Part shown: positions 14,158-64,000 of the stretch, in pieces | How positions within the stretch are numbered: the first letter of the stretch is position 1 | Layout: every line of letters begins with the position of its first letter | Assembly: GCA_026645935.1 (NCBI GenBank) | Contig: JAPKMP010000020.1 | Span: 1 to 64,000 of the forward strand | From: Candidatus Villigracilaceae bacterium | GTDB lineage: Bacteria > Chloroflexota > Anaerolineae > Anaerolineales > Villigracilaceae | Reading direction: 5' to 3' | Length of the DNA: 64,000 nt | The notes under the pieces: model-generated | What the model saw: only the letters and a program-made list of their open reading frames with translations | Databases searched by the model: none | What the model was told of the DNA's origin: nothing | Position numbers and translations under genes: made by a program

Positions 14158-14766
14158 ATGTCCGATTTTCTCCTTACCCAAGTCATCAATTATGGCGCGC
14201 CGCTGCTGGGAGTGGTTGTTTTTATAGGCGGGTTGGGCGTTCCACTACCCTGCACTCCGCTCGTCATTGCCGCTGGAGCGTTTTCCCGAGAGGGGTATTT
14301 GCCGTGGCATACCACCGCATTGACCTCCATCATCAGCGTGATCATCGGCGATAGTCTCAGCTATTCGATGGGTTATTACGCCAGCGGGTACGTTCTCAAA
14401 CGTTTCGGCGGAACCCCGAAATGGATCGAAGCAGAAAAGACCTTCGAACGGTGGGGACCGCTTTCCATTTTCTTCTCACGTTTTTTGGTGACCGCCATTG
14501 CGCTGCCAGTAAATCTTCTATCCGGTACAACGCGTTATCCGTTCAGGAAGTTCATTATTTATGATGCACTCGGTGAAGCCGTGTGGATCTTCGGCTACGG
14601 CGGGCTCGGTTATCTCTTCGGCAGTCAGTGGGAAGTGGTCAATGAATTCTTGGGTAATTTTGGCGGATTGACGCTCGGCGTGATCTTTTTCATTGTCGGG
14701 CTCCGCCAGGTTATCAAGCGGCAGGCAAAAAAGCGGCAGGAATCCGCCGCAAAAAATTTGTGTTGA
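14158..14766 (+). CDS. DedA/VTT-domain membrane protein
   Basis: This 202-residue polytopic protein belongs to the DedA (SNARE-associated, VTT) family: an N-terminal re-entrant hydrophobic segment, GDSLSYSMGYYAS after the first helices and the signature SRFLVTAIALPVNLLSGTTR near the middle, followed by two C-terminal helices and a basic tail. DedA proteins act in undecaprenyl-phosphate or lipid translocation and membrane homeostasis. It is the third gene after obgE with 11 bases between genes and converges on an NnrS-like gene. Confidence 0.88.
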   Translation: MSDFLLTQVINYGAPLLGVVVFIGGLGVPLPCTPLVIAAGAFSREGYLPWHTTALTSIISVIIGDSLSYSMGYYASGYVLKRFGGTPKWIEAEKTFERWGPLSIFFSRFLVTAIALPVNLLSGTTRYPFRKFIIYDALGEAVWIFGYGGLGYLFGSQWEVVNEFLGNFGGLTLGVIFFIVGLRQVIKRQAKKRQESAAKNLC

Positions 14767-62758: not shown

Positions 62759-63265
62759 ATGGCTAACCCAAGAAAACCGTTTCGATTCAATGTCGGCTTC
62801 ATCATCCATGAAGAGGTCGGCTATAACCACGATTTCCCGTTCGAGTTCGAGAAGGTCACGCTCGGCGGCGACCTTGAACTGCGAAATTTCGAGGGCAGCG
62901 TCAATGTCGGCAAAACCCCGCAGGGCTTGATCGCACAGGGGAAATTTGCCGCCGAAACCACCCTTACCTGTTCGCGCTGTCTCACCGATTTTGTGCAGGA
63001 AATGGATTGGGAGTTTACAGAACTTTATGCGTTCGACCAGCGTTCGGTCACCGACTCCGGTCTGATCCTCCCGGAAGATGCGCATCTCGATGTGGAAGAA
63101 CTTCTGCGTGATTATGCCGTTTTGGAGATACCAATCAATCCCATATGTAAAGCAGGGTGCCTGGGCTTATGCTCCGAATGCGGACAGAACCTGAACGAAA
63201 AGGACTGCGGCCACCGCCCGGCAGAGCCTGATTCGCCCTTCGCAAAACTTAAGGATTTGCTGTAA
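62759..63265 (+). CDS. yceD: DUF177/YceD family protein
   Basis: The 168-residue protein belongs to the YceD family that works with large-subunit rRNA. TCSRCLTDF is the first Cys pair; the C-terminal stretch CKAGCLGLCSECGQNLNEKDC gives a second Cys-rich cluster, probably zinc-binding. In most genomes rpmF (L32) follows yceD; here that position is taken by the Met-rich leader of metG. AGTG-like sequence precedes the ATG, SD weak. Confidence 0.92.
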   Translation: MANPRKPFRFNVGFIIHEEVGYNHDFPFEFEKVTLGGDLELRNFEGSVNVGKTPQGLIAQGKFAAETTLTCSRCLTDFVQEMDWEFTELYAFDQRSVTDSGLILPEDAHLDVEELLRDYAVLEIPINPICKAGCLGLCSECGQNLNEKDCGHRPAEPDSPFAKLKDLL

Positions 63266-63268
63266 AAT
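63239..63268 (+). promoter_or_regulatory. candidate promoter of metG leader
   Basis: TTCGCA (63239-63244, four of six) and TAAAAT (63263-63268, five of six) have 18-base spacing. The -10 ends seven bases before the leader ATG, so the message could start at or near that ATG. Confidence 0.5.
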
Positions 63269-63275
63269 ACCGCTC

Positions 63276-63365
63276 ATGAAATTCACTTCCGCTTTTCCGA
63301 TGGTGCCAATGACCATGGCCATGCGAATGGAGATGTCTTTTTACACCGAGTGGAAAGCACGTTAG
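63276..63365 (+). CDS. Met-rich leader peptide of metG
   Basis: ATG to TAG gives 29 codons: Met at positions 1, 9, 12, 14, 16, 18 and 20. Seven of 29 residues, with six in a block of twelve, is far above normal Met use. The frame ends 19 bases before an intrinsic terminator (63385-63412) and 155 bases before metG. By analogy with Trp, His and Leu leaders, ribosome stalling at ATG codons when Met-tRNA is short would prevent termination. No SD is visible, but a -10 box seven bases upstream allows a leaderless start. It is too short to be found by ordinary gene callers. Confidence 0.72.
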   Translation: MKFTSAFPMVPMTMAMRMEMSFYTEWKAR

Positions 63366-63384
63366 GCCGTCGAACAAGAAAACG

Positions 63385-63412
63385 GGCTGTCCATTTCGCG
63401 GACAGCCTTTTT
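63385..63412 (+). terminator. attenuator terminator of metG
   Basis: GGCTGTCC (63385-63392) and GGACAGCC (63400-63407) form a perfect eight-base stem with loop ATTTCGC, followed by TTTTT. The stretch TCCATTTCGC (63390-63399) can alternatively pair with GCGAATGGA (63323-63331) inside the Met codon run, one bulge allowed, so the two folds exclude each other. Confidence 0.85.
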
Positions 63413-63426
63413 GTTTGAAATTAACA

Positions 63427-63508
63427 ATGTCATTGCGAGCCTGAAGGGCGAAGAAATCATCAAAACTGGAGATTGCTTCGGCGAAAAAGCACCGCCTCGC
63501 AATGACAT
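63427..63508. repeat. REP-like GTCATTGCGAG element in the metG leader
   Basis: ATGTCATTGCGAG and CTCGCAATGACAT form 13-base ends; inside are the complementary segments GAAGAAATC and GATTGCTTC. The right end abuts the metG SD (TAGGAG). It matches a widely distributed bacterial repeat type by appearance. Confidence 0.8.
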
Positions 63509-63520
63509 AGGAGAAACACC

Positions 63521-64000
63521 ATGACCGAAACCATTTTAGTGGCAGTCGCCTGGCCGTATGCCAATGCCGAAATCCACGTGGGTAACATCACGGGTTCCCA
63601 TTTGCCCGGCGATATCTTCGCCCGTTACCAACGCCTGAAGGGTAACAAGGTACTGATGATCACCGGCACCGACTCGCACGGCACACCTGTCACCATGAGC
63701 GCGGACAAACTCGGCAAACCCGTCGAGGAAGTGTACAAGTCTTTCCATGAAGGCTTCATCGAGTTGTTCCAGCAGCTTGGCATCACCTACGACCTGTATA
63801 CCACGACCCATAGTGAAAACCACTTCAAGGTCTCGCAGTCAATGTTCCTTGCCTTGCAAAAGAACGGCTATCTTTACCGCGAGTTCAGCAAACAGTGGTA
63901 CTCCCCCAGCGCGGGCAAATTCCTGCCGGACCGCTACGTCGAAGGGACATGCTACATCTGCGGCTTCGAAGGTGCGCGCTCGGATCAATGCGATAACTGC
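63521..64000 (+). CDS. metG: methionyl-tRNA synthetase (partial, N-terminal)
   Basis: The first 160 residues are present; the window ends inside the gene. ATG 63521 follows TAGGAG. AWPYANAEIHVGNITGSHLP carries the class I HIGH-type motif as HVGN, and YSPSAGKFLPDRYVEGTC with CYICGFEGARSDQCDNC is the zinc-knuckle insertion in the connective peptide, as in Met-tRNA synthetases with four-Cys metal sites. The enzyme charges both initiator and elongator tRNA-Met. An apparent leader-peptide attenuator and a REP-like repeat stand between its promoter and start codon. Confidence 0.96.
   Translation, partial: MTETILVAVAWPYANAEIHVGNITGSHLPGDIFARYQRLKGNKVLMITGTDSHGTPVTMSADKLGKPVEEVYKSFHEGFIELFQQLGITYDLYTTTHSENHFKVSQSMFLALQKNGYLYREFSKQWYSPSAGKFLPDRYVEGTCYICGFEGARSDQCDNC

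Follow-up and report, generated by a model that had tools for sequence, protein, structure and literature searches.

Organisation of the region upstream of metG

The window considered here is a 64,000-nucleotide stretch of DNA from a Candidatus Villigracilaceae bacterium (Chloroflexota; contig JAPKMP010000020.1, positions 1 to 64,000). At its 3′ end lies the beginning of metG, the gene for methionyl-tRNA synthetase, which is preceded in turn by a DUF177 gene, a short reading frame rich in Met codons and an intrinsic terminator. The features of the region are as follows.

63239–63268, + strand: leader promoter with a −35-like TTCGCA and a −10 TAAAAT (63263–63268), predicted by a consensus scan (9/12) and overlapping the end of the DUF177 gene.
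63276–63365, + strand: leader peptide frame of 29 codons with 7 Met, translated as MKFTSAFPMVPMTMAMRMEMSFYTEWKAR and then a stop.
63291–63298, + strand: candidate arm 1, GCTTTTCC, codons 6–8, inferred; it could pair with arm 2 when the ribosome is absent.
63300–63335, + strand: sensor run, Met codons 9, 12, 14, 16, 18 and 20, read from the sequence.
63323–63331, + strand: GCGAATGGA, the antiterminator arm of the preliminary description; its complementarity to 63390–63399 is real and it ranks as second choice.
63348–63364, + strand: arm 2, the putative antiterminator arm GAGTGGAAAGCACGTTA, overlapping the stop codon and drawn from a duplex search, RNAalifold, pair counts and the fold of the stalled RNA.
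63381–63399, + strand: arm 3, the terminator left arm and loop, AACGGGCTGTCCATTTCGC, partner of arm 2.
63384–63412, + strand: intrinsic terminator and T run, arm 3 with arm 4 (GGACAGCCT), kept in relatives.
63521–64000, + strand: metG, the presumed controlled gene, recognised by its translation and by matches in relatives and running beyond the window.

The leader frame begins 10 nt past the stop codon of the DUF177 gene. Translation bears out an earlier reading of the locus, in which Met was placed at codons 1, 9, 12, 14, 16, 18 and 20 of a 29-codon frame and metG 3′ of the terminator; metG starts at 63521. The terminator hairpin (63384–63408) consists of GGGCTGTCC / ATTTCGC / GGACAGCCT followed by T's; its presence and position are as first described, and the word "perfect" was slightly generous, one of its nine pairs being G–U. 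The complementary segments proposed at that stage, GCGAATGGA at 63323–63331 and TCCATTTCGC at 63390–63399, lie where they were placed, and the RNA from 63270 to 63420, whose folding had been suggested, is more stable than most of its shuffled counterparts (z = −2.41, 5 of 200 shuffles being as good).

The Met-rich frame exceeds chance expectation

The leader frame has seven in-frame ATGs. Of 400 dinucleotide shuffles made from the 350 nt preceding metG, not one equalled it (p = 0.002, the lowest value that this number of shuffles allows). The control applied this test upstream of 53 ORFs in the window, each 200 aa or longer; they lie on both strands, and some are not genes. Two gave p ≤ 0.05, roughly what chance would yield, none gave p ≤ 0.005, and the highest Met count was four. 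A short frame upstream of the window ORF that starts at 14158 (+), MNFTRTMMDMC, has four Met and p = 0.017, a value within chance expectation for 53 tests. Among 58 upstreams of pheS, thrS, leuS, trpE and metK from the same genus, no Met-rich frame reached p ≤ 0.05 by a variant statistic (the most Met in any 12-codon stretch over 330 nt, one upstream being 197 nt long). Leaders rich in Phe, Thr, Leu and Trp, sought at pheS, thrS, leuS and trpE of the genus, gave nothing consistent in 45 tests; the single matches at p ≤ 0.05 were L264 (Thr), L270 (Leu) and L280 (Leu). A chance origin of the Met-rich frame is rejected by the shuffles, by the 53-ORF control and by the 58 other upstreams, and the occurrence of such a frame together with a terminator before metG is real and beyond chance.

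Distribution and conservation of the leader

A metG match at E 1e-40 or better was obtained in 98 of the 101 genomes searched, the other three giving weak matches only; the same-genus genomes G031, G034 and G055 gave no strong metG match and were left out of the upstream set. The class and phylum samples consisted of 30 loci each, own and repeated genomes included, from 51 and 49 matching genomes respectively. Further upstreams were taken from 80 named records, mostly MAGs titled Anaerolineales, Anaerolineae or Chloroflexi, with one Herpetosiphon and several Anaerolinea among the titles. Upstreams shorter than 200 nt (L007, L078 and L113) and those identical over the last 200 nt were dropped before counting, so that 32 distinct loci of the 80 named ones remained.

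The preliminary description had named the lack of both frame and terminator in close relatives as the finding that would speak against it. Of 53 distinct same-genus metG upstreams, 52 have a significant Met-rich frame with an intrinsic terminator after it, as do three of four from other genera of the family and the one further family locus (1/1). The rest of the order has both in 13 of 40 loci and the rest of the class in 8 of 28; counting the Met-rich frame alone, the figures are 17 and 9, where the test at p ≤ 0.05 would give about two and one to two by chance, and no significant Met-rich frame was found in the other 23 order and 19 class loci. Both features occur in 26 of the 32 further distinct named loci and in none of 20 metG upstreams from outside the class. 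As judged from these upstreams, the leader is conserved in the genus and family and patchy across the class; the relatives that retain frame and terminator ahead of metG are numerous and belong to one group of Chloroflexota, most of whose members are uncultured. The sole same-genus miss (L064) has unrelated upstream sequence, and L073, L094 and L070, which fail on one count, still resemble leaders by eye, having Met-rich frames and hairpins with a poor T run. A further locus of the same family (L069, in genome G059) has a terminator and a short complementary stretch near the expected place, and a frame without the Met run; it is perhaps a leader that has lost its sensor.

Across 103 positive leaders, internal ATGs number 527 in frame against 8 and 20 (28 in total) in the other two frames, a bias that points to translation of a short frame with a run of Met codons, and Met makes up 17.3% of the residues after the start. 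When the peptides of 60 leaders picked for their family-type ends are aligned, conservation covers most of the Met columns, and between families the peptides differ widely except for Met. A codon alignment of the 60 frames submitted to RNAalifold returned no conserved structure over the whole frame. Variability at the three codon positions was 0.28, 0.33 and 0.37; since the third is only slightly the highest, these values were not used as coding evidence. The terminator of the relatives lies about 14–61 nt past the stop codon of the frame. Six of the leaders (L023, L047, L059, L122, L137 and L166) carry an in-frame insertion of hairpin-like DNA encoding about TLAP.ASAG(V), which recurs at the same part of the Met leader.

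A predicted promoter just ahead of the leader ATG

In 72 of the 103 leaders, 7 nt separate the end of the best −10-like site from an in-frame ATG, and in a further 15 the distance is 6 nt (87/103). A promoter score of at least 9/12 was reached by 61 of the 103, against on average 1.34 and at most 5 that reached it in the control (50 draws, random positions), a comparison in which the observed leaders are somewhat favoured because the scan could pick among up to four in-frame ATGs and the control had one random position. The layout common among relatives is TTGACA, 17 nt, TAAAAT, 7 nt, ATG. Because the −10 element ends 6–7 nt before the ATG, the start of transcription is placed at the ATG itself; the window transcript is predicted to begin at the ATG or 1–2 nt before it, and the leader frame is probably leaderless.

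The frame tail as the proposed antiterminator arm

The antiterminator originally proposed paired GCGAATGGA, within the Met run, with part of the terminator left arm and loop. In most family-type leaders the best duplex with the left arm and loop involves the final stretch of the frame (some −21 to +1 counted from the stop codon), and in the window GAGTGGAAAGCACGTTA pairs with the left arm and most of the loop. Locus by locus the advantage over shuffles is of moderate size: z averages −1.44, and 31% of 106 loci have p ≤ 0.05. By a second measure, 25 of 82 family-type and named leaders had p ≤ 0.05; of the 21 leaders from the order and class six did, and the p values of these 21 combine to 6e-5.

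The 74 sequences of alignment A1 all combine a family-type tail with a terminator of the GGCTGTCC type; eight other-tailed leaders, L067, L180, L181, L220, a duplicate and the leaders with other terminators were left out of it. When these 74 sequences were cut before the right arm, RNAalifold independently returned the core GGA.AGC / GCU.UCC, which is without covariation because it is nearly invariant. Over the full 21-pair antiterminator, 83.8% of cells pair, against 31–48% with one side slid. Double changes are seen in 42 cells, where shuffles give 19.4, and the covariation score of 0.138 compares with 0.101; not one of 500 shuffles attained either value. Counted by pairs, double changes are no commoner than in the controls: 7 pairs have at least one, against 7.6 in shuffles and 6–10 when slid. 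Covariation in the window and the family type lies at the flanks only. In several other families a near copy of the terminator right arm follows the Met run (e.g., L077, L085, L090, L172, L177, L187, L194); in several distant GC-rich families a convincing arm was not found (e.g., L086, L087, L099, L103, L104, L105), and these leaders stay in all counts.

Attenuation by Met codons could also operate through the 63323–63331 arm, or use both, the Met codon at which the ribosome stalls deciding between them. At four loop positions in 18 informative loci there is nothing to choose between this arm and the tail arm (38 against 36 of 72 cells), and in some relatives, L011, L021 and L107 being clear cases, the better duplex is the one made by this arm. 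Against it, the tail arm forms up to 17 pairs compared with nine and is the better duplex in most family-type loci, which downgrades GCGAATGGA as the sole antiterminator; the copies of the right arm past the Met run in several other families are left unexplained by the upstream arm; and a ribosome at codons 16–20 would occupy it. We regard this variant as unlikely, if well short of negligible. The best-supported candidate for the arm is the frame tail at 63348–63364, adjoining the stop codon and sharing the terminator left arm in the window and in the family type. Of the first proposal it is the arm that is revised, GAGTGGAAAGCACGTTA at the frame end being better supported. With the arm goes the caveat, attached to the original choice, that the geometry is not that of trp, because a ribosome at the stop codon would cover GAGTGGAAAGCACGTTA.

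Spacing and competing structures

A ribosome with a codon in its A site covers roughly 12–15 nt ahead. In the 103 leaders, most of which share one family-type tail, the antiterminator arm starts a median of 15 nt after the last Met codon; with that codon in the A site the arm would therefore be just free. The spacing extends to leaders with other tails: in a set of 33, which admits Met-frame p up to 0.1 and holds close pairs (e.g., L181/L220, L193/L197) so that not all are independent, the arm starts 11–19 nt after the last Met codon in 17, where 5.5 are expected from shuffles and where 17 was reached in 0 of 20,000 simulations, the other 16 falling outside that range. Fifteen of these 33 have better arms (p ≤ 0.1); their arm positions scatter by 5.0 nt relative to the last Met codon and by 10.8 nt relative to the stop. 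This is the geometry expected of an attenuator, given such a ribosome footprint and with some other-tailed arms ending well before the stop codon. The distance from the last Met codon to the arm, as kept in those 17 of 33 leaders, would constitute a comparative trace of the size of the ribosome.

When the ribosome is placed at the last Met codon and the right arm is still unmade, at least six bases of the left arm and loop pair upstream in 94 of 103 leaders; for a stall at codon 20 in the window, the fold of the free RNA supports arm 2. The stalled fold without the right arm has a median energy of −16.3 kcal/mol and the terminator alone −16.9 kcal/mol (103 leaders), the corresponding window values being −12.7 and −16.5 kcal/mol. 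Once the stalled RNA is complete, 89 of 103 leaders, the window's among them, hold the terminator in their lowest-energy fold. The antiterminator must therefore win kinetically, by forming first.

In 52 same-genus leaders folded with no ribosome on the RNA, the arm-2 core finds 72% of its pairing in the first part of the frame, and its pairing within the frame is above the shuffled-frame mean in 50 of the 52 (mean z 1.4). These leaders suggest a possible protector pairing between the arm-2 core and the early part of the frame, but in the lowest-energy fold of the window the core prefers the nearer 63332–63344 over arm 1.

A model for methionine-dependent attenuation of metG

Comparison of the sequences shows a frame enriched in Met codons, a terminator, a promoter at a set position, complementarity between frame and terminator, and a spacing measured from the last Met. 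On this footing we consider it very probable that the region is a methionine-sensing, ribosome-mediated transcription attenuator of metG, of the trp type, which responds to methionyl-tRNA. The proposal of a Met leader-peptide attenuator in the preliminary description is supported, relatives carrying both the Met-rich frame and the terminator.

What we infer from these features is translation of the frame, stalling, antitermination in the cell, protector pairing and a response to methionine, as follows. Transcription would start at or just before the ATG of the 29-codon frame, and the leaderless mRNA would be translated directly behind RNA polymerase. When Met-tRNA is plentiful, the ribosome would reach the stop codon and cover 63348–63364, so that the terminator at 63384–63412 would form and metG would be left untranscribed. 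When Met-tRNA is scarce, the ribosome would stall on Met codons 9–20, and the tail, from about 15 nt past the last Met codon, would stay free to pair with 63381–63399 before the right arm exists, allowing the polymerase to continue into metG. Without any translation, the tail could pair within the frame and the terminator would form.

Methionine differs from other regulatory amino acids in that it is also the initiator. If the frame is leaderless and starts with AUG, then one product of the synthetase would control both initiation, through initiator Met-tRNA, and stalling, through elongator Met-tRNA. A class-wide Met attenuator in which the charge of the sensed tRNA also gates entry of the ribosome, and which has a two-threshold response, is a tentative extension of the model that we think rather doubtful. 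Were it true, a mild shortage would stall ribosomes and turn metG on, and failed initiation would keep the protector pairing and leave metG off, a response unavailable to a leader for another amino acid. The double role of Met also means that the system allows a direct test of initiator against elongator Met-tRNA shortage.

Alternative explanations

The terminator might merely end the DUF177 transcript, with the Met-rich frame accidental or encoding a small protein with a function of its own, for example in metal binding. DUF177 does precede the terminator in the window, and the frame follows it closely. Where enough upstream sequence was available the leader is present in 29 of 29 loci, and DUF177 was found upstream in 12 and not found in 17; because the leader is kept regardless of DUF177, the reading in which the terminator serves DUF177 only is rejected. 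As to a protein, the peptide sequence is unconserved between families except for Met, the tail or the stretch past the Met run matches the terminator of its own family in many families, and a protein would need neither a terminator some 14–61 nt past its stop codon nor an arm spaced from its last Met. We hold an explanation along these lines to be highly improbable.

In nascent-peptide arrest leaders such as TnaC and SecM, it is the peptide that acts. A leader of this kind at metG would sense something in the exit tunnel and not the supply of Met-tRNA. The peptides of the family have conserved residues near the N-terminus, around SAFPMV, and a conserved W-K-A-R tail, as such a leader might require, but the tail residues vary (WKAR, WRAR, WIAR, WMAR, WDER) while much of the RNA pairing holds, and the residues of the SAFPMV region are absent from other families. 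Arrest by the peptide seems to us a slightly poorer prospect still.

Searches with Rfam returned no family at gathering score in the window; weaker matches in the segment that holds the frame are unrelated. No family reached that score at 20 leader-bearing metG loci, and 20 other metG loci, mostly leader-free, gave no match apart from a tRNA gene in L235. At the searched metG loci there was neither a T-box match (RF00230) upstream nor a SAM riboswitch, and the same search finds both elsewhere in the genus: of two thrS loci, one has a T-box upstream (L257, 1011–1284) and the other is without a match (L265), and both metK loci that were searched are preceded by a SAM riboswitch (L302, 1278–1392; L305, 1286–1387). 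Control of metG by a ligand- or tRNA-binding riboswitch of these types, with the frame incidental, is the least probable reading of all, for although the genus possesses such devices, Rfam families stay below gathering score in the window and at the metG loci of relatives, and the frame itself is under selection by the ATG counts given above. With the Met leader at metG, the genus appears to use three RNA devices in related roles, the T-box at thrS (in one of two loci) and the SAM riboswitch at metK being the others.

Relation to known systems

The trp, his and pheST leaders are leader-peptide attenuators, pheST being an aminoacyl-tRNA synthetase operon. The metG leader resembles them in its short frame rich in the regulatory codon, in the intrinsic terminator before the gene, in an antiterminator that uses the terminator left arm and in the possibility of a protector pairing; as in pheST, the controlled gene encodes an aminoacyl-tRNA synthetase. 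Unlike them, its regulatory codon, Met, is also the start codon, it is probably leaderless, and its gene is metG. T-boxes (RF00230) and SAM riboswitches (RF00162) likewise control synthetase or Met genes.

A further parallel is provided by Streptomyces lividans, for which one report describes leader peptides before leuS, trpS, thrS, trpE, leuA, ilvBHC and metNIQ, together with alaL before alaS, and states leaderless starts for all but alaL (PMC8079986). One of them, MSTTSDRTPATEATTTPGARCMCRRMCAF, is a proposed Met leader before metNIQ that has three Met and, by its authors' account, is without a typical Rho-independent terminator; none of the eight listed leaders precedes metG (PMC8079986). 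The likeness lies in the leaderless start, in the several synthetase genes and in the one proposed Met leader; unlike the metG leader, that Met leader is weak, has three Met, and stands before a transporter in a different phylum. In the open-access literature as it was accessible, neither a Met leader peptide of metG nor a described leader peptide from Chloroflexi or Chloroflexota was found. A further study calls the presence or absence of its peak insignificant in Chloroflexi and some other groups (PMC4833913).

If the model is correct, methionine and its synthetase gene would join the leader-peptide attenuators with good comparative support. It would place an attenuator in a phylum for which the accessible open-access literature yielded no described case, and would add a non-actinobacterial example of leaderless leader peptides.

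Other elements around the terminator

Two further elements flank the terminator. The gap between stop codon and terminator (window 63366–63380; alignment A1 columns 26–41) holds a small variable hairpin in many family-type leaders, in which 71.4% of cells are paired and some double changes are seen. Between the terminator and metG, at 63426–63510, lies a palindromic repeat of the CATTGCGAG ... CGCAATGACA type. With 40 of 78 candidates scored, the genome has pieces like it at no fewer than 15 further sites, and by eye a similar element occupies the same gap in several relatives and is absent from others.
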